A stretch of DNA of 64,000 bases, from the NCBI GenBank assembly GCA_021776375.1, contig JAJFGA010000090.1:1-64000 (forward strand), in the 5' to 3' direction. The notes beneath the pieces are model-generated. The model was not told the origin of the DNA and searched no databases. It saw only the letters and a program-made list of their open reading frames with translations. The translations under genes were made by a program, and so were the position numbers. This document shows positions 4,512 through 24,271 of this stretch, one piece after another; position 1 is the stretch's first letter; each line of letters opens with the position of its first letter. This DNA is from Hyphococcus sp. (GTDB lineage Bacteria; Pseudomonadota; Alphaproteobacteria; Caulobacterales; Parvularculaceae).

Positions 4512-5174
4512 CTAGAGTTTGAGATATGTGCTTGTTGCCAGCACCAACTCGCGCAGAAATTCATTTTCGGATACTTGGTCGAGGGGGGCTGGGTTGGTGC
4601 AAAACAGATATTGTTCTCGCAACTCAGCTCCGATCATGGAAATCGCAAAAGAAATCCGAAGCTGGGCGCGCTTATTCGTTCCGCCATCCAAGCGCGCACT
4701 CATGGCGGCTATTAATTCTTGATGGATCGACTGGTTCGCCTGTTTAAGGTAGCGGGTGAGATCAGTATCTTTGGAACTCCTGAATAAAAGCGTCATTGGC
4801 TTCAGGATTGGCCGGTGGTGAGAAAATATGTAAGTTATGGCTTTGCAATAGGTGCGTAAAAACCCTTCCAATGAAGTTGCTCGAATAGCGCTCGGCTTCG
4901 TGGCGGGGTGCCCCTCGTCGCGAAGTTTTCCGACGACCATCTCTTCGGCGACAAAGATCAGTAAGCGTTCTTTTGAAGGGAATCGACTATAAAGTGAGCC
5001 CAGCCCTACTTTTGCTTCGCGCGCCAATTCACTCATTGACAGATCGTCATAACCTTCACGTAGGATTATTCCATATGCAGCGGCGACAATGCGCATAAGC
5101 GTTTGCTGACTGCGTGCTTGTTGGGGCCGAACAATACAAGGGTTGGGCGATCCAGAATTCATAGAATTGCCCAT
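4512..5174 (-). CDS. TetR/AcrR-family transcriptional regulator
   Basis: A 220-residue one-component repressor. The N-terminal helix-turn-helix spans about residues 25-70, with the typical run ending in SLYSRFPSKERLL. The C-terminal ligand domain is not similar to anything recognised. An in-frame ATG at 5162 is an alternative start. The stop lies 23 nt before the CPBP protease start, suggesting one transcript. An inverted repeat overlapping the -10 element of a good promoter lies about 65 nt upstream of the start, consistent with autoregulation. Inducing ligand unknown. Confidence 0.88.
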   Translation of the reverse strand: MGNSMNSGSPNPCIVRPQQARSQQTLMRIVAAAYGIILREGYDDLSMSELAREAKVGLGSLYSRFPSKERLLIFVAEEMVVGKLRDEGHPATKPSAIRATSLEGFLRTYCKAITYIFSHHRPILKPMTLLFRSSKDTDLTRYLKQANQSIHQELIAAMSARLDGGTNKRAQLRISFAISMIGAELREQYLFCTNPAPLDQVSENEFLRELVLATSTYLKL

Positions 5175-5238
5175 TTTCCTGCGACATAATTCTGTGGCAG
5201 ATGCATCTATAGCTGTTACCTTCAGTCAAAACAAGAAT

Positions 5239-14169: not shown

Positions 14170-14264
14170 GGCAACGCCAACGCCGCATTTTTCATTTTCA
14201 ACAACGCGGTTTTGCTTGCCGATGACCCACGGTTGGGCGGTCCAATTGTCAAATTCGGATGGAT

Positions 14265-14290
14265 CAAAACGCTTTTGAATTGGCGTTTTG
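14265..14290. promoter_or_regulatory. Inverted repeat in the leader of the protocatechuate operon
   Basis: CAAAACGC (14265-14272) and GCGTTTTG (14283-14290) form perfect 8-bp arms with a 10-nt spacer, one helical turn between half-site centres beyond the arms. It lies about 50 nt upstream of ligK and inside the only spacer of the operon, so it is a plausible operator for the missing lig regulator. Confidence 0.45.
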
Positions 14291-14339
14291 TGGCTCTTCT
14301 GGCAAGCTTGTCACATCCAGACGGACCGGAGTTATGGCT

Positions 14340-15035
14340 ATGGGCGTTGTCGTCCAGAACATCAAACGTGTTGACCGCTCGACCGTCGACGCCTTTGCGG
14401 CGGAAAAGTATGGCGTTGCAACCGTCCATGAAGCGCAAGGGCGCAAGGGACTTCTCGCGCCGGGCATCAAGCCAATTTACAAAGGTGCGCATGTCGCCGG
14501 TACGGCGGTCACCATTTCCGCGCCACCTTGCGACAACTGGATGATCCATGTTGCGGTTGAACAATGCCAGCCCGGCGACGTTTTGGTGCTGGCGCCAACG
14601 TCTGATTCTGACGCCGGATATTTCGGCGACCTGCTTGCCACTTCGCTGACCGCTCGCGGTGTTAAAGCGCTGATCATCAACGCCGGCGTGCGCGACACCC
14701 GGGATCTGACCGAGATGAAGTTTCCTGTCTGGTCAAAATGCGTGTTTTCACAAGGTACGGTCAAGGAAACCCTAGGCAGCGTAAATGTGCCGGTGGTCTG
14801 CGCCGGCGCGCTGGTCCATCCGGGCGATCTCATCATCGCCGATGATGACGGCGTTGTCGTTGTCGCGCGTGAGGACGCCACCAGTGTCCTTGAAAAATCG
14901 AAACAGCGAGAAGCCGATGAAGAAGACAAACGCAAGCGCCTCGCAGCGGGAGAACTTGGTCTTGATATTTATAAGATGCGCGAGCGTCTTGCCGAGAAAG
15001 GGCTAAAATATATTGATCAGGCGGATACGGATTAA
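14340..15035 (+). CDS. ligK: 4-carboxy-4-hydroxy-2-oxoadipate aldolase / oxaloacetate decarboxylase
   Basis: A 231-residue RraA-fold class II aldolase, the last step of protocatechuate 4,5-cleavage: CHA to pyruvate plus oxaloacetate. The signature [20 protein letters not shown] followed by GVRD (near residues 98-122) supplies the metal and pyruvate ligands. The ATG at 14340 lies 8 nt after GGAG; the ATG at 14334 is only 2 nt from it. The frame runs further upstream, but without family-like sequence. It is the first gene of a nine-gene plus-strand operon whose other members (ligU, J, I, A, B, C) settle its role. Alternative names are galC and proA. Confidence 0.93.
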
Positions 15036-15041
15036 CCGCCC

Positions 15042-16136
15042 ATGCTCACTGCAATCCCGGCGACATTGATGCGCGGCGGCACCTCAAAAGGGCTGTTTTT
15101 TGATAAAAGCGCCCTGCCCGAGGATGAAAGTCTTCGTGACCGCGTATTACTCGCCGCCATGGGCTCGCCCGACATCCGCCAGATTGACGGCGTTGGCGGC
15201 GCGCATCCGCTGACCAGCAAAGTTGCGGTGATCTCACCATCCAGCCGCAACGATGCAGATGTCGATTATCTTTTCTTACAGGTCGTCGTCGATAGGGCGG
15301 AAGTCAGCGACAGCCAGAATTGCGGCAACATCCTCGCAGGTGTCGGCCCCTGGGCGATTGACCATGGGCTTGTGGAATGCGCCGGTGACGTAACGCCGGT
15401 GCGCATTCATATGGCCAACACCGCAAGCATTGCGGTGGCCCATGTGCCGACGCCAAATGGCGCGGTCGAATATGAGGGCGATGCGCGTATTGACGGCGTT
15501 CCGGGGACCGCTTCGCCGATACCGATCGATTTTGTTGACGTCGCCGGCACAAGTTGCGGCGCGCTGTTTCCGACCGACAACCCTCGCGATACAATCGATG
15601 GCGTTGACGTCACCTGTATCGACAATGGCATGCCAGTCGTGCTTCTGCGCGCAAGCGATTTTGGACTAACCGGCACAGAGACACCTGAGGAACTTGAACA
15701 AGACACAGCCCTGAAAGTGCGCATCGAAGCGATCCGATTGAAGGCCGGCCCGAAGATGAAGCTTGGCGACGTTGCCGGCAAGACCGTCCCAAAAATGACA
15801 CTGATTTCTCCACCGGCAAGTGGCGGCATCCTCTCGACGCGGAGCTTTATACCACACCGGGCGCACGAGGCGATCGGCGTTCTCGGCGCCGTCAGCGTTG
15901 CTGCTGCTTGCCTTGCGCCCGGTTCTGTCGCCGACGGCATTGCTGCGGTCAAAACAAACGCTTCAGGCGTCCAACGCCTCGATATCGAACATCCGAGCGG
16001 TTTTTTTACGGTCGAAATGGACGTTCAAATCGATGCCAGGGCGCTAGCGATCAAACGCTCCGCCCTGTTGCGCACCGCTCGCCCGGTGATGCGCGGCGAG
16101 GTATTAATCCCGTCAGCGATATGGAGCGGTCGATGA
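15042..16136 (+). CDS. ligU: 4-oxalomesaconate tautomerase / isomerase (PrpF family)
   Basis: A 364-residue PrpF-like isomerase. LigU/GalD enzymes shift the double bond or enol form of 4-oxalomesaconate before its hydration. The N terminus PATLMRGGTSKGLFF (residues 6-20) is the PrpF signature. The catalytic-cysteine region DSQNCGNI lies near residue 90 and GTSCGALFPTD near 168. It starts 6 nt after ligK and its stop overlaps the next start (ATGA). Whether it acts like LigU or GalD cannot be told from sequence alone. Confidence 0.92.
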   Translation: MLTAIPATLMRGGTSKGLFFDKSALPEDESLRDRVLLAAMGSPDIRQIDGVGGAHPLTSKVAVISPSSRNDADVDYLFLQVVVDRAEVSDSQNCGNILAGVGPWAIDHGLVECAGDVTPVRIHMANTASIAVAHVPTPNGAVEYEGDARIDGVPGTASPIPIDFVDVAGTSCGALFPTDNPRDTIDGVDVTCIDNGMPVVLLRASDFGLTGTETPEELEQDTALKVRIEAIRLKAGPKMKLGDVAGKTVPKMTLISPPASGGILSTRSFIPHRAHEAIGVLGAVSVAAACLAPGSVADGIAAVKTNASGVQRLDIEHPSGFFTVEMDVQIDARALAIKRSALLRTARPVMRGEVLIPSAIWSGR

Positions 16137-17029
16137 CACTATCGCGTATCGCACTGATCGGGTTTGGCGAAGTCGGACAAATTCTCGGCAAAGACCTCGC
16201 CGCAAACGGTGTTGAGGATATCTCCGCCTGGGACCTAAAGTTTGACGATGCCGATAGCGGGCCATCACGCGCGCTGACCGGAAATTATGTGACCGCTAGC
16301 GCAAATGCGCAGGATGCAGTCAAGGGCGCAGATCTCGTGATCTCCGCCGTCACCGCGGCGCAGACCATTACAGCAGCGCAAAGCGCCGCCGACGCCATCG
16401 GGCCTGGTGGCTTCTTTGCCGATATGAATTCGGCGTCCCCGTCAGTGAAAACCAAAGCCGCTGCGATCATCAACGACGCCGGAGGGCGCTATGTCGATCT
16501 TGCGGTGATGGCGCCGATTGCGCCAAAGCGGCTGACAACGCCAATGCTAGCGGGCGGGCCGCATGCGCAAGCGCTGATTGATGCCGTATCCGGGCTCGGC
16601 TTTGACGGCGCAGCTTTCTTTGCTGACGAATATGGCAAGGCCGCCGCCGCCAAGATGTGCCGCAGCATCGTCGTCAAAGGTATAGAGACGCTGCTCACAG
16701 AAGCACTTCTTGCTGCGCGGCATTATGGCGTGGATGCATCGGTGATCACATCGCTTGACGATCTCTTTCCGGGCAGGGACTGGAACCGGCTTGCGCGTTA
16801 TATGATTGCACGCTCGCTGGAACACGGCGCGCGGCGCGCGGAAGAAATGCACGAGGTTGCGCAAACGGTTTGCGATGCCGGCGTCGATCCGCTGATGAGC
16901 ACAGCTTGCGCCGAACGGCAGAACTGGGCGGCTGTGCGCAAAGCAGCCATGAACGAGGCCGCGCTGGCGCCAATGCTCGATGCTATCCTCAAAACTATTC
17001 AGTCTGACAAGGATGCGGCCTCATGTTGA
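16133..17029 (+). CDS. NAD(P)-dependent dehydrogenase with DUF1932 C-terminal domain
   Basis: A 298-residue protein of the 6-phosphogluconate / 3-hydroxyisobutyrate dehydrogenase superfamily. The N-terminal Rossmann fold has GFGEVGQILGKDL near residues 9-21. VDLAVMAPIAPKRLTTPMLAGG sits near 120-141. The C-terminal DUF1932 domain contains AAAKMCRSIVVKGIETLLTEA near 170. The start at 16133 has GGAG 6 nt upstream and overlaps the ligU stop by 4 nt; the open frame extends further upstream but inside ligU. It is embedded in the lig operon between ligU and ligJ, so it should act on a dicarboxylate or tricarboxylate intermediate. Its exact reaction is not established. Confidence 0.85.
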   Translation: MTLSRIALIGFGEVGQILGKDLAANGVEDISAWDLKFDDADSGPSRALTGNYVTASANAQDAVKGADLVISAVTAAQTITAAQSAADAIGPGGFFADMNSASPSVKTKAAAIINDAGGRYVDLAVMAPIAPKRLTTPMLAGGPHAQALIDAVSGLGFDGAAFFADEYGKAAAAKMCRSIVVKGIETLLTEALLAARHYGVDASVITSLDDLFPGRDWNRLARYMIARSLEHGARRAEEMHEVAQTVCDAGVDPLMSTACAERQNWAAVRKAAMNEAALAPMLDAILKTIQSDKDAASC

Positions 17030-18048
17030 TTATTGACTGCCACGGTCATCATACGGTCGCACCACAAGCCCATCTTGATTATCGCGAGGCGCAAAAGGCG
17101 CGCTTGAAAGACCCTTATCTGCCGCGTCCCGACCGCGCCACTATCAGCGATGATGAAATTCGCGAAGGTATCGAGGCCAATCAGCTAAAGCTGCTTAAAG
17201 AGCGCGGCGCCGACATGACGATCTTCAGCCCGCGCGCCTCACGCATGGAACCCCATGTGGGCGACGCTGAAACCGCGCTCGACTGGTCGATTGCCTGCAA
17301 CAATCTCATTCATCGGGTAACGGATTTATACAAGGATACGTTCATTGGCGTTTGCATGTTGCCGCAAACGCCGGGCGGATCGCTCGACAACTCCATCGCC
17401 GAGCTAGATCGGTGCATCAACGAGTTGGGCTTTGTCGGCTGCAACCTCAATCCGGACCCCTCGGGCGGCCACTGGACGTCGCCGCCGCTGACCGACCGCT
17501 ACTGGTATCCGATCTATGAGAAAATGGTTGAGCTTGATGTTCCGGCGATGGTTCACGTTTCCGGCTCGTGCAACCCCGCCTTTCACGCTACGGGCTCTTA
17601 TTATATTGCGGCGGACACGAACGCTTTCATGCAATTTATTCAGGGCAATCTGTTTGCAGATTTTCCAGACTTGAAATTCATCGTCCCTCATGGCGGCGGC
17701 GCGGTTCCCTACCACTGGGGGCGTTATCGTGGCCTTGCGGATATGTTGAAGCAACCACCCGTCGAGACCCATGTGATGAAAAACGTCTATTTCGACACCT
17801 GCGTTTATCATCAACCGGGCATTGATCTCCTCTTTGGCGTCATCGATATCGACAATATTCTCTTCGGCTCGGAAATGGTCGGTGCGGTACGCGGGATAGA
17901 TCCGCAGACGGGACAATATTTCGATGACACGAAACGCTATGTCGATAACCTCAATCTGTCCGATGATGATCGGTACAAAGTCTATGAAGGCAACGCCCGG
18001 CGCGTATACCCTCGTCTTGACCAGATGCTGAAGGCGGCCGGCAAATGA
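17023..18048 (+). CDS. ligJ: 4-oxalomesaconate hydratase
   Basis: A 341-residue amidohydrolase-superfamily enzyme that hydrates 4-oxalomesaconate to 4-carboxy-4-hydroxy-2-oxoadipate. Metal-binding motif DCHGHH near residues 5-10; HVSG near 178; VPHGGGAVPYHWGR near 222; LFGSEMVGAVRGID near 284, where the terminal Asp of the fold is replaced by Glu (SEM), as in LigJ-type enzymes. It overlaps the preceding gene by 7 nt and the following ligI by 4 nt. Confidence 0.92.
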   Translation: MLIIDCHGHHTVAPQAHLDYREAQKARLKDPYLPRPDRATISDDEIREGIEANQLKLLKERGADMTIFSPRASRMEPHVGDAETALDWSIACNNLIHRVTDLYKDTFIGVCMLPQTPGGSLDNSIAELDRCINELGFVGCNLNPDPSGGHWTSPPLTDRYWYPIYEKMVELDVPAMVHVSGSCNPAFHATGSYYIAADTNAFMQFIQGNLFADFPDLKFIVPHGGGAVPYHWGRYRGLADMLKQPPVETHVMKNVYFDTCVYHQPGIDLLFGVIDIDNILFGSEMVGAVRGIDPQTGQYFDDTKRYVDNLNLSDDDRYKVYEGNARRVYPRLDQMLKAAGK

Positions 18049-18967
18049 ATGAGCGGGCCGCGACATTTGAAAAAACGCCGGGCTGGCTCGACTGGCATCC
18101 GCGCCCGTCAAAGCCAGGCTTTGTTCCGCCGCCAGGCGCGGTCGACGCCCATTGCCATGTCTTCGGGCCGGGCGCCAAATTCCCCTTCGCGCCTGAGCGC
18201 AAGTATACGCCCTGCGACGCCTCAAAAGATCAGCTCTATGCCTTGCGTGATCATCTTGGCTTTTCGCGCAATGTGATTGTACAGGCGACCTGCCATGGGT
18301 CAGACAATCGCGCGCTCGTCGATGCAATTGCGCACTCAAACGGCCGCGCGCGCGGCGTTGCGAGCATCAAGCCGGAGATTTCCGATGACGATTTAAATGC
18401 GCTCAACGCGGCTGGCGTGCGCGGCGTGCGCTTTAATTTCGTCAAGCGCCTTGTTGACGCTCTGCCCCGCGAGCCGCTGATGGAAATCGCTAGCCGCATT
18501 CGCCCGCTCGGCTGGCATATCGTGATTTATTTCGAGGCGCCGGAACTGCCCGAGCTCTATGATTTTTTCACGTCCCTGCCGACACCCGTTGTCGTCGATC
18601 ATATGGGCAGGCCTGATGTGTCAAAGCCGGTCCACGGCCCGGAGTTTGAGCTCTTCATCAAGCTTATGTGCGAAAATGAAAACTTCTGGTCAAAGGTCAC
18701 TTGCCCCGAAAGGCTTAGCAACGAAGGCCCGCCGCATTACGCTGATGTGGCGCCGTTTGCGCGCCGGGTAGTGGAAGAATTTCCCGACCGCGTCCTGTGG
18801 GGCACCGACTGGCCGCACCCGAACCTTAAGTCTCACATGCCGGACGATGCCTGGCTTGTTGATTTCATTCCCAGGATAGCGACGACCCCGCAGCTACAGC
18901 AGAAGCTGCTGGTGGATAACCCGATGCGGCTTTATTGGCCGGAAGAGCATAAAGGAGAAGCACAATA

Positions 18968-18968
<1 letters not shown>
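18045..18968 (+). CDS. ligI: 2-pyrone-4,6-dicarboxylate hydrolase
   Basis: A 307-residue amidohydrolase-superfamily lactonase that opens 2-pyrone-4,6-dicarboxylate to 4-oxalomesaconate. VDAHCHVFGPGAKFPFAP (near residues 34-51) is the family N-terminal metal motif. GVRFNFVKRLVD lies near 132, DHMGRPD near 185, and the catalytic Asp motif LWGTDWPHPN near 253. It overlaps ligJ by ATGA and shares one base with ligA (TAATG). Confidence 0.94.
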
Positions 18969-20199
<1,231 letters not shown>

Positions 20200-20221
20200 T
20201 CGCAATTTGGAGAGCGAACCC

Positions 20222-21172
20222 ATGAAAGTCATTCTCGCTGGCGCCGGCGCCTTTGGCCTGAAGCATCTAGACGGCATCAAAAACATCGACGGCGTAGAGG
20301 TTGTCTCGCTGATCGGGCGCAGGCTGGAACCGACGCAAAAAGTTGCGAAGGATTACGGTATCGCCCATGCGACGACAGATCTGTCAGAAGCGCTTGCTCA
20401 ACCCGGCGTCGAGGCGGCGATCCTCTGCACACCGACACAGATGCACGCCGCGCAAGCTATCGCTTGTATGGATGCCGGCAAGCATGTGCAGATAGAAATT
20501 CCTCTAGCCGACAGCTGGCAAGATGCTGATGCGGTCAATAAGAAACAAAAGGAAACCGGTCTAGTCTGCATGGTTGGGCATACGCGCCGCTTTAACCCGT
20601 CGCATCAATATATTCATAACAAGATCACAGCCGGCGAGCTTTCAATCCAACATATGGATGTGCAAACCTTTTTCTTCCGCCGCAAGAACATGAACGCCAA
20701 GGGCGAGGCGCGGTCCTGGACCGATCATCTGCTTTGGCACCATGCAGCCCATACTGTCGATCTTTTCCAATACCAGACCGGCGAGAAGGTCACGCAAGCC
20801 AACATCATCGAAGGGCCTGTTCATCCAGAGCTTGGCATTGCGATGGATATGTCGATCCAGCTGAGAACCGAGAACGGCAAACTTTGTAGCCTGACGCTAT
20901 CCTTCAATAATGATGGACCTTTCGGCACGTTCTTCCGTTATATCTGCGACAACGGCACCTATATTGCGCGCTATGACGATTTGTTCACCGGCCGCGAGGA
21001 AGCGGTCGATGTCTCTAATGTTGACGTCTCAATGAACGGCATCGAATTGCAGGACCGGGAGTTTTTTGCCGCAATCCGTGAGGGTCGCGAACCAAACGCA
21101 AGCGTCGGGCAAGTGCTCGCCTGTTATGAAACGTTGCACCTGCTGGAGCAGCAATTGAACGCGCAAGAATAA
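20222..21172 (+). CDS. ligC: 4-carboxy-2-hydroxymuconate-6-semialdehyde dehydrogenase
   Basis: A 316-residue Gfo/Idh/MocA-family dehydrogenase that oxidises the LigAB product (as its hemiacetal) to 2-pyrone-4,6-dicarboxylate with NADP+. The nucleotide motif GAGAFGLKHLDGI is near residues 7-19. CTPTQMHA is near 75, and HVQIEIPLADS near 92 sits where the family's EKP motif is normally found. The start at 20222 follows GGAG by 9 nt, and the family N terminus begins there. It lies 22 nt after ligB. Confidence 0.93.
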   Translation: MKVILAGAGAFGLKHLDGIKNIDGVEVVSLIGRRLEPTQKVAKDYGIAHATTDLSEALAQPGVEAAILCTPTQMHAAQAIACMDAGKHVQIEIPLADSWQDADAVNKKQKETGLVCMVGHTRRFNPSHQYIHNKITAGELSIQHMDVQTFFFRRKNMNAKGEARSWTDHLLWHHAAHTVDLFQYQTGEKVTQANIIEGPVHPELGIAMDMSIQLRTENGKLCSLTLSFNNDGPFGTFFRYICDNGTYIARYDDLFTGREEAVDVSNVDVSMNGIELQDREFFAAIREGREPNASVGQVLACYETLHLLEQQLNAQE

Positions 21173-21183
21173 AAAAGGCTGCA

Positions 21184-22182
21184 ATGAAAACTCGCAAGAT
21201 CGGACAGTTTGACGCCGGTGAGATCGGTCTCGGCTGTATGAATTTAAGTCACGCCTATGGCGAGCCGCCGACGCCAGAAACCGGCGTCAGGGTGCTCCAC
21301 ACAGCGCTTGATCTGGGTGTTACGCATTTTGACTCTGCCGCGCTTTACGGCTTTGGCCGCAACGAGGCGCTTGTCGGTCCGGCGCTTAAACCGTTTCGCG
21401 ACAGTATTTTTCTGGTCAGCAAATGCGGCATGCAGGGCGTTGACGGCAAGCGCGTCATCGACGGGCGGCCGGAAACATTGCGGGCGACACTGGAAATGTC
21501 ACTGCGCCGGCTCGAGACGGACTTTATCGACCTTTACTACCTCCACCGCTGGGACAAAGAGGTCCCTATCGAAGCCTCGGTCGGTGAAATGGCGCGAATG
21601 GTAGAGGAAGGAAAAGTCCGCGCGATTGGGTTGTCAGAAGTTTCCGCCGTAACCCTCAATAAAGCCCATGCAGTACATCCGATTGCAGCCGTTCAGTCGG
21701 AATATTCCTTGTGGAGTCGCAATGCCGAAATAGCGATGATCGACGCTTGCAAAGAGGTTGGCGCGGCGTTTGTCGCCTTTTCTCCCCTGGCGCGGGGCTT
21801 TCTCGCGGATGTTGAGCTTGACCCGACAGCACTTGCTGCAAAGGACATCCGCTGCAACATGCCGCGCTTTCAAGAGCCGCATTTTTCAGCCAATGCAAAG
21901 CTCTCGCCTGAATTTCAAAGCATAGCCAAAGCCGCCGGCTGCACGCCAGGCCAACTCGCGCTTGCCTGGGCGCTGCAAAAAGCACCGCACATTCACGTTA
22001 TTCCCGGCACCACTTCTCTCGCCCATCTCGAAGAAAACGTCGCCGCCAGCACGATCAAGCTGAGCCCGAAAACCATCGCCCGCGTCGAGCGACTGATTAA
22101 CCAGAACACCATCAGCGGGCCGCGCTATCCTGCGTCGGTACAAGCCGAGATCGATACCGAACAATTTCCCAATGAAGTCTAG
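21184..22182 (+). CDS. Aldo/keto reductase
   Basis: A 332-residue (beta/alpha)8 NADPH-dependent aldo/keto reductase, AKR11/12-like. The catalytic tetrad is visible: Asp of HFDSAALYG near residue 50, Tyr of ALYG near 55, Lys of VSKCG near 80, and His of YYLHRWD near 122. The C-terminal QLALAWALQ, then IPGTTSLAHLEEN, binds the cofactor. It is the last gene of the lig operon, 11 nt after ligC. It may reduce an aldehyde precursor or side product of aromatic catabolism; that is inferred from position. Confidence 0.9.
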   Translation: MKTRKIGQFDAGEIGLGCMNLSHAYGEPPTPETGVRVLHTALDLGVTHFDSAALYGFGRNEALVGPALKPFRDSIFLVSKCGMQGVDGKRVIDGRPETLRATLEMSLRRLETDFIDLYYLHRWDKEVPIEASVGEMARMVEEGKVRAIGLSEVSAVTLNKAHAVHPIAAVQSEYSLWSRNAEIAMIDACKEVGAAFVAFSPLARGFLADVELDPTALAAKDIRCNMPRFQEPHFSANAKLSPEFQSIAKAAGCTPGQLALAWALQKAPHIHVIPGTTSLAHLEENVAASTIKLSPKTIARVERLINQNTISGPRYPASVQAEIDTEQFPNEV

Positions 22183-22193
22183 CGGAACTGCCC

Positions 22194-22520
22194 TCAAGGC
22201 AGACCAGGATAGCTTGTCACCATCTGGATTTTCAAATCGGGAAAGCTATCCACATACTGAATTTTTACGTCTGGAAAGCTTTCAACAAATGTCCACTCGC
22301 CGCATTTATCAGCAAAGCTCGTGACCACCCTGACTTTCAGGTCCGGAAAACTCTCAACGATTTTAACCTTGATGTCAGGGAAACTCTCGACGATTTGTAC
22401 TTTTCCGTGAAGCGCAAATCCCTTGAAGGTGCAGTCCTCACCGACCACGCTTTCCGCATAAGCCAAAGACGTCGCCCACTGCGCGATCACCGATCCACAT
22501 ATCAATATTCCAAGTCTCAT
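22194..22520 (-). CDS. Exported repeat protein, probable 7(1) septoil-knot type
   Basis: A 108-residue protein with a signal peptide (residues 1-22) and a mature part made almost wholly of six short repeats. Units: VQIVESFPDIK (41-51), VKIVESFPDLK (52-62), VRVVTSFADKC (63-73), a longer GEWTFVESFPDVK (74-86), IQYVDSFPDLK (87-97), IQMVTSYPGLP (98-108). Cys30 and Cys73 could form a disulfide. The pattern of consecutive hV-[ED]-SFPDhK strands matches my memory of the Pfam septoil-knot family, small beta proteins predicted to be deeply knotted. That assignment is recalled, not searched. Function unknown. It is convergent with the aldo/keto reductase (11 nt apart). Confidence 0.7.
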   Translation of the reverse strand: MRLGILICGSVIAQWATSLAYAESVVGEDCTFKGFALHGKVQIVESFPDIKVKIVESFPDLKVRVVTSFADKCGEWTFVESFPDVKIQYVDSFPDLKIQMVTSYPGLP

Positions 22521-22846: not shown

Positions 22847-24271
22847 ATGTCGTTTGCCGATCTCGGCCTTGAGCCGAAGCTTCTCGATGCTATTGCAGCT
22901 GCAGGCTACGAGACCCCCACACCGATCCAGAAAGAAGCGATCCCGCCCGCGCTTGAAAACCGTGACGTATTGGGCATTGCCCAGACCGGCACGGGCAAAA
23001 CCGCATCTTTCACCCTGCCAATGATCCAGCGCCTCGGTCGAGGCCGGGCCAAAGCGCGCATGCCGCGCTCATTGGTTCTGGCGCCAACACGCGAGCTGGC
23101 GGCGCAAGTTGCAGAGAATTTTGAAAAATACGGCGCCAATCACAAGCTATCGATGGCGCTCCTGATTGGCGGCGTTTCTTTTGGCGACCAGGACGCCAAG
23201 CTGACCCGCGGCGTTGATGTTTTAGTCGCAACCCCCGGCCGCCTCCTTGACCACTTTGAACGCGGACGTTTGTTGCTCACCGGAATTGAAGTGATGGTCG
23301 TCGATGAGGCTGACCGGATGCTCGACATGGGCTTTATCCCAGACATTGAAAGAATATTTAAACTCACCCCGATGACCCGGCAAACCCTGTTCTTCTCGGC
23401 AACAATGCCGCCGGAAATTCAGCGCATCACAGACCAGTTCCTGCATAACCCGGTACGTGTTGAGGTCGCAAAACCCGCAACCGCCGCCGACACGATAAGC
23501 CAGCGTATCGTGCGCATGCCGATAAAAGATGACAGAACAAAACGCGCTGCACTGCGCCAGTTGCTAACGCACAAAGATGTCAGAAACGGAATTATTTTTT
23601 GCAACCGTAAATCAACCGTCGATGTGATCGCTAAGTCCTTGCAAAAACATGGCTTCAATGCGCGCCCGATCCATGGCGACCTTGCTCAAGCTTTCCGGAC
23701 GGAAACCTTGGATAAATTTCGCAGCGGCGAGGTGCAGTTTCTTGTCGCCTCTGACGTTGCCGCCCGCGGTCTCGACATTCCCAATGTTAGTCACGTCTTT
23801 AATTACGACGTGCCGATCCACGCTGATGATTATGTACACCGCATTGGCCGTACAGGCCGCGCCGGCAAAAAGGGCGCAGCAATGATGTTGGTGACGCCCG
23901 CTGACAGTAAATTTTACGCAGCGATTTTAAAAACCACCGGCGCAGAAGAAATTGAAGCGCTCGACTTTTCTGCATTCTTCGAAGAGCATGCCGCCGGCGG
24001 CGGCCACCGCCGCCCTAGCCGCGACAAGGCGGATGACAGCCGGAGCCGACCACGCCGCCAGCCAAGAAAAGCGGAAGAGCAAAAACCGGAACCGTCCAAA
24101 CCCGAAGCTGCCAATGAGACACCAAAAGTCGTAGCGGACAGGGAACCGCCGGCGCCGCGCCGCAGGCGAACAAACCCGACAAAACCGTCAAAGCAGCGCG
24201 AAAGCGCCGAGCCGGTCATCGGCATGGGCGATCATGTTCCGGATTTCATCACGCGGGCCGTAGCGAGTTAA
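22847..24271 (+). CDS. DEAD-box ATP-dependent RNA helicase (RhlE-like)
   Basis: A 474-residue RNA helicase. Ordered motifs: Q motif (ETPTPIQKEAIPP near residues 23-35), Walker A AQTGTGKT near 45, PTRELAAQ near 78, VDEAD near 150, FSATMPPE near 181, then helicase C domain with IFCNRKSTVDVIAKSL, VASDVAARGLDIPNVSHV and HRIGRTGRAGKKG. A disordered basic tail (about residues 385-460) rich in Arg/Lys/Pro/Glu probably binds RNA. RhlE/CsdA-type helicases act in ribosome assembly, RNA decay and cold adaptation. The long leader suggests post-transcriptional control. Confidence 0.95.
   Translation: MSFADLGLEPKLLDAIAAAGYETPTPIQKEAIPPALENRDVLGIAQTGTGKTASFTLPMIQRLGRGRAKARMPRSLVLAPTRELAAQVAENFEKYGANHKLSMALLIGGVSFGDQDAKLTRGVDVLVATPGRLLDHFERGRLLLTGIEVMVVDEADRMLDMGFIPDIERIFKLTPMTRQTLFFSATMPPEIQRITDQFLHNPVRVEVAKPATAADTISQRIVRMPIKDDRTKRAALRQLLTHKDVRNGIIFCNRKSTVDVIAKSLQKHGFNARPIHGDLAQAFRTETLDKFRSGEVQFLVASDVAARGLDIPNVSHVFNYDVPIHADDYVHRIGRTGRAGKKGAAMMLVTPADSKFYAAILKTTGAEEIEALDFSAFFEEHAAGGGHRRPSRDKADDSRSRPRRQPRKAEEQKPEPSKPEAANETPKVVADREPPAPRRRRTNPTKPSKQRESAEPVIGMGDHVPDFITRAVAS

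Follow-up and report, generated by a model that had tools for sequence, protein, structure and literature searches.

To our knowledge, the most complex knot among solved protein structures is that of Q9PR55 (UU089.1), a protein of Ureaplasma urealyticum deposited in the Protein Data Bank (PDB) under 8iwa, 8iwb, 8iwc, 8jrm and 8w68, where the title of 8jrm describes a solution structure of 7_1 knotted Q9PR55. This 7_1 knot was predicted by Brems et al., with a knotted core at residues 27-83 (PMC9278004), and was subsequently confirmed by crystallography (PMC11223836, PMC13352647). The same study predicted a 5_1 and not a 7_1 knot for P73136 of Synechocystis, an uncharacterised homologue of 112 residues that is 48% identical to Q9PR55 (PMC9278004). 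A third point of comparison is PHROG 6462, a phage protein family that was built from virus proteins and whose function is not annotated. Here, these systems are compared with the product of a small gene of Hyphococcus sp. (Parvularculaceae, Alphaproteobacteria), which lies within the first 64,000 nucleotides of contig JAJFGA010000090.1 (assembly GCA_021776375.1), the whole stretch being referred to below as the window. The gene and its parts are as follows:

22194..22520, reverse strand: gene for a probably exported six-repeat protein of 108 residues (open reading frame; orthologues in the majority of the other genomes of the genus and also outside it; ratio of non-synonymous to synonymous substitution, dN/dS, 0.03-0.06)
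22455..22520, reverse strand: Sec signal peptide, residues 1-22, with a probable cut between AYA and ES (read from the sequence; nearly all homologues are hydrophobic at the corresponding position)
22302..22406, reverse strand: first half of the repeat domain, residues 39-73, repeats SFPD, SFPD, SFAD (self-identity at lags 11 and 35; model strands 17-21, 28-32, 39-43)
22197..22301, reverse strand: second half, residues 74-108, repeats SFPD, SFPD, SYPG (self-identity at lag 35; model strands 53-56, 63-67, 74-78)
22431..22433, reverse strand: Cys30, first partner of a probable disulfide (the Cys30 and Cys73 columns co-occur in 119 distinct domains)
22302..22304, reverse strand: Cys73, second partner, at the hinge between the halves (same co-occurrence)

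The membership of the window protein in the Q9PR55 family is well supported. A phmmer search of all PDB sequences returned a single molecule, Q9PR55 (8iwa and the four other entries, E-value 3.6e-11), and a profile of 52 relatives matched it at 2e-16 with the next best match at 0.89; there was no other credible match among the PDB sequences. Both proteins carry homologous VxSFPDxKV repeats, which follow each other in the same order, and their halves are separated by hinges of identical length. At the level of structure, an AlphaFold2 (AF2) model of the mature domain, built from 52 sequences without templates, reached a mean predicted local distance difference test (pLDDT) of 91.4 and a predicted template-modelling score (pTM) of 0.77, with all five models above 81, and has six strands, one per repeat. 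When this model was searched with Foldseek, all four matches below E 0.001 were Q9PR55 entries (E 1.2e-6 to 4e-5, template-modelling (TM) score 0.54-0.63), while the viral structure library BFVD gave no significant match. With VIA-align, 53 residues superposed on Q9PR55 at 1.6 A (Z 6.1), model residues 9-79 lying on chain residues 16-89, a span that covers the whole knotted core. The initial annotation, made from the sequence, had proposed a septoil-type deep knot for this protein and was thus right in kind, but it spoke of a predicted family, whereas the 7_1 knot of Q9PR55 has been solved by crystallography and nuclear magnetic resonance.

The Pfam search for a septoil family, suggested at the same time, was a dead end, as the window protein has no Pfam match above the cut-off; neither Pfam nor NCBIfam gave a credible family match, and no knot family is among the matches of 52 family members. 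PF19647, initially taken for the septoil profile, stands for DUF6150 in the Pfam copy searched and was discarded, as a scan of 60 genomes, that of the window among them, gave no match (the control genomes were also without a match).

That the gene encodes an exported six-repeat protein had been claimed initially and stands: the signal peptide, MRLGILICGSVIAQWATSLAYA, was placed by eye together with its cut, and shows neither a lipobox nor a twin arginine when read from the sequence, and six repeats follow. The description of these as near-identical 11-residue SFPD units over 65 residues, forming almost the entire mature protein, needs some correction. Four of the five steps are of 11 residues and repeats do make up most of the mature domain, but one step has 13 residues, the third and sixth repeats read SFAD and SYPG, and the repeats occupy around 70 of about 86 residues. 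Specifically, Phe stands at mature positions 25, 36, 47, 60 and 71 and Tyr at 82, giving steps of 11, 11, 13, 11 and 11. Self-identity at lag 11 amounts to 27/75, and the best lag in 2000 shuffles had a mean of 9.2 and did not exceed 16; the repeat pattern is far beyond chance. A second period exists at lag 35, with 18 of 35 residues identical between the halves, and the domain is therefore composed of two halves of three repeats, each of 35 residues and opening with G-x-(V/W). The dN/dS against close relatives of the window's genome indicates that this is a real gene whose product is under strong constraint.

Regular repeats of 11 residues with one strand each would also suit an ordinary, unknotted beta-solenoid. 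However, both sequence and fold match only the 7_1-knotted Q9PR55 in the PDB and no solenoid was matched, and a two-strand braid requires just such a 13-residue step and halves of 35 residues, which makes a solenoid very improbable. The residues preceding Phe in the six repeats (ESF, EHF, TDF etc.), compared among 78 homologues for a ladder pattern of stacking repeats, form sets that vary between lineages.

The window protein is very probably some torus knot, and more likely than not a 7_1 knot. Several points weigh against so specific an assignment: (i) the knot is assigned by homology to Q9PR55, (ii) the TM score of the model to 8iwa is moderate (0.56-0.62, Foldseek E 1.2e-6) and (iii) AlphaFold does not respect chain crossing, although those who gave this warning allow that the knots of the 5_1 and 7_1 types could be genuine (PMC10672856). 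Moreover, P73136 illustrates that a protein of this family can be predicted as a 5_1 knot at 48% identity to Q9PR55, which would result here if the last winding were incomplete or the end were not threaded. The window protein resembles the cyanobacterial homologues found here in predicted export and length, and these relatives share its plan. In contrast, the alignment of the model with 8iwa runs up to the last residue of the latter (model 79 on chain 89), and the model continues beyond this point, and therefore the winding segment is present; past the end of Q9PR55, the window protein still possesses its sixth repeat (SYPG) in full. A 5_1 knot is possible and the less likely outcome of the two.

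Two further features set the window protein apart from Q9PR55, its signal peptide and a probable disulfide, C30-C73. The two cysteines of the mature part had been pointed out initially and are indeed C30 and C73 of the precursor, 43 residues apart, while a third, C8, lies inside the signal peptide; in Q9PR55 the hinge position is not a cysteine, the Cys of that protein being three residues earlier. Across 119 distinct domains, both columns hold Cys in 104, neither does in 15 and one alone in none (L129 lacks a Cys at the first column and has one that is displaced by one place from the second). When the two columns are left out of the tree, each of them changes six times on it. Because the cysteines are gained and lost jointly a disulfide is probable, and it would join the N-terminal part of the chain to the hinge and so clamp the knot. 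A caution is that the well-supported branches hold only three independent losses of the pair, all in the same direction (p 0.25).

The family is both widespread and patchy. Among GTDB genomes, 106 relatives were confirmed, from at least nine phyla: Pseudomonadota, Bacteroidota, Ignavibacteriota, Chlorobiota, Cyanobacteriota, Bacillota, Spirochaetota, Myxococcota and Bdellovibrionota. The gene is present in 23/28 genomes of the window's genus (its own genome counted) and in 6/398 of its phylum, and in 11/395, 14/291 and 4/299 genomes of the phyla to which a Bacteroidales, a Roseofilum and a Selenomonadaceae genome belong, respectively. A hydrophobic N-terminal signal is found in nearly all relatives, with L101 as an exception. 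L101, L130 and L131 are cysteine-free copies seemingly without a signal peptide (most clearly L131) and seem to resemble a cytoplasmic branch of the family. Other copies (L103, L104, L105, L076, L088, L121, L122 and L141) keep a signal-like N-terminus while both cysteines are absent, and the disulfide thus seems to be dispensable for the fold. Two Bacteroidales copies, L057 (match 5001-5237) and L075, carry two family domains per chain, both of which match the profile, and may possibly contain two torus knots in one protein; AF2 on the tandem of L057 gave no usable model (pLDDT 38, pTM 0.21). Relatives also occur in Leptospiraceae, namely L018 (Turneriella) and two copies annotated as hypothetical protein on Leptospira weilii plasmids (NZ_CP092209.1 and NZ_CP092208.1).

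A further feature of the family is its carriage by phages. The window protein matches PHROG 6462 over essentially its full length (E 3.8e-32, covering positions 9-103 of the 103 in the profile), and 13 IMG/VR contigs carry the gene, at least five of them distinct phage contigs that hold it antisense among late genes. In L126 (5667-5960), L129 (9887-10240) and L133 (6893-7258) it lies antisense between the baseplate hub genes PHROG 4930 and 5233, although these phages have diverged to the point that their hub proteins are 22-28% identical. In L141 it is antisense and adjoins the Rz spanin and endolysin genes, in L142 it is antisense beside a minor tail gene and near the terminase, and in L130 it is again near the terminase; the neighbours in L143 had no PHROG match, and L124, L127, L128 and L132 may be host DNA. 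The gene is thus moron-like phage cargo, i.e. an extra gene antisense within late genes, in L126, L129, L133, L141 and L142. The window copy has no such setting, being chromosomal and beside metabolic genes, unlike the virus proteins of the PHROG. The tree is poorly resolved, and nine changes of label are needed on it for the phage copies.

Taken together, the best explanation, to which we assign a probability of roughly 0.75, is an exported knot protein of the Q9PR55 family, probably knotted after export; an action at the envelope, with phage copies of an exclusion type, is its low-confidence part. The precursor would be threaded unfolded through SecYEG and cleaved after AYA, and since export is usual in the family, knotting would have to take place after this unfolded threading and outside the cytoplasm. 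In the periplasm, the two homologous three-repeat halves would be wound into a two-strand beta braid, producing a (2,n) torus knot, most likely 7_1, and the disulfide would then pin the N-terminal segment to the hinge. The product may be a small, very stable and protease-resistant scaffold at the cell envelope, without a catalytic site; the literature on the protease resistance of other knots is mixed, some knotted proteins being easily degraded by ClpXP (PMC6382783).

As to what such a scaffold would do, its carriage as antisense cargo among late genes led us to take protection of the envelope of the lysogen or host as the role. Phage copies might then be lysogenic-conversion factors, for instance in superinfection exclusion, and chromosomal copies such as that of the window might be domesticated, a proposal held with low confidence. 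Other results run counter to it: a tblastn search of 50,697 GenBank phage records found no match, the window copy is itself outside any phage, the PADLOC defence profiles gave no family match up to E 0.1, no operon partner is conserved beyond close kin, and no neighbour suggests a function. A purely host-serving envelope protein, such as a stress or structural scaffold that phages merely carry as a passing moron, is at least as likely and comes fairly close to an even chance, considering the purifying selection, the retention in most genomes of the genus and the chromosomal location of most copies found; the recurrent fixed antisense site in diverged phages, on the other hand, suggests a benefit to lysogens. 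The most specific combination, a disulfide-locked 7_1 family that ties itself after Sec translocation, has been spread between phyla by temperate phages carrying it as a moron and protects the envelope of the lysogen (e.g. by superinfection exclusion), is rather unlikely to hold in all its parts.

What is new here for the Q9PR55 family is (i) its patchy occurrence in multiple phyla, (ii) the near-universal signal peptide, (iii) the co-occurrence of the cysteines and (iv) the carriage by phages. The window protein and its relatives indicate that the 7_1-type fold is not a mycoplasma oddity, and the phage cargo is a first hint of a possible purpose of the family. Both the purpose of the 7_1 knot and folding in the periplasm become questions for experiment in ordinary laboratory strains.

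The chromosomal surroundings of the window copy comprise the following:

22847..24271, forward strand: DEAD-box RNA helicase of the RhlE type, divergent from the gene (NCBIfam; the same divergent pair in L011, L014, L022, L024, L029 and L041)
14259..22182, forward strand: lig operon for protocatechuate 4,5-cleavage and an aldo-keto reductase gene, in convergent orientation to the knot gene (matches to LigK, 4-oxalomesaconate (OMA) tautomerase, LigA and LigB)

The helicase is a conserved neighbour in Parvularculaceae only and is not thought to be part of the function of the knot protein. The initial annotation had also placed the gene next to an aromatic-degradation operon, and the lig operon is next door, the end of its gene cluster being 11 bp away; the two are also adjacent in L009-L012, the four genomes most closely related. 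It could therefore be imagined as an accessory of that operon, e.g. a periplasmic binder of aromatic compounds. Yet the two are on opposite strands, tail to tail, and other orthologues have no lig genes beside them but a helicase, UbiD-like or transhydrogenase-like genes; as the arrangement is convergent and is not conserved beyond the closest kin, the link was rejected and such a role is extremely improbable. One recurrent neighbour cluster was also set aside, as it is merely an antisense reading of the repeat gene itself. The lig cluster proper (14259-20199) is an ordinary protocatechuate 4,5-cleavage cluster with LigK, 4-oxalomesaconate tautomerase, LigA, LigB and their neighbours.
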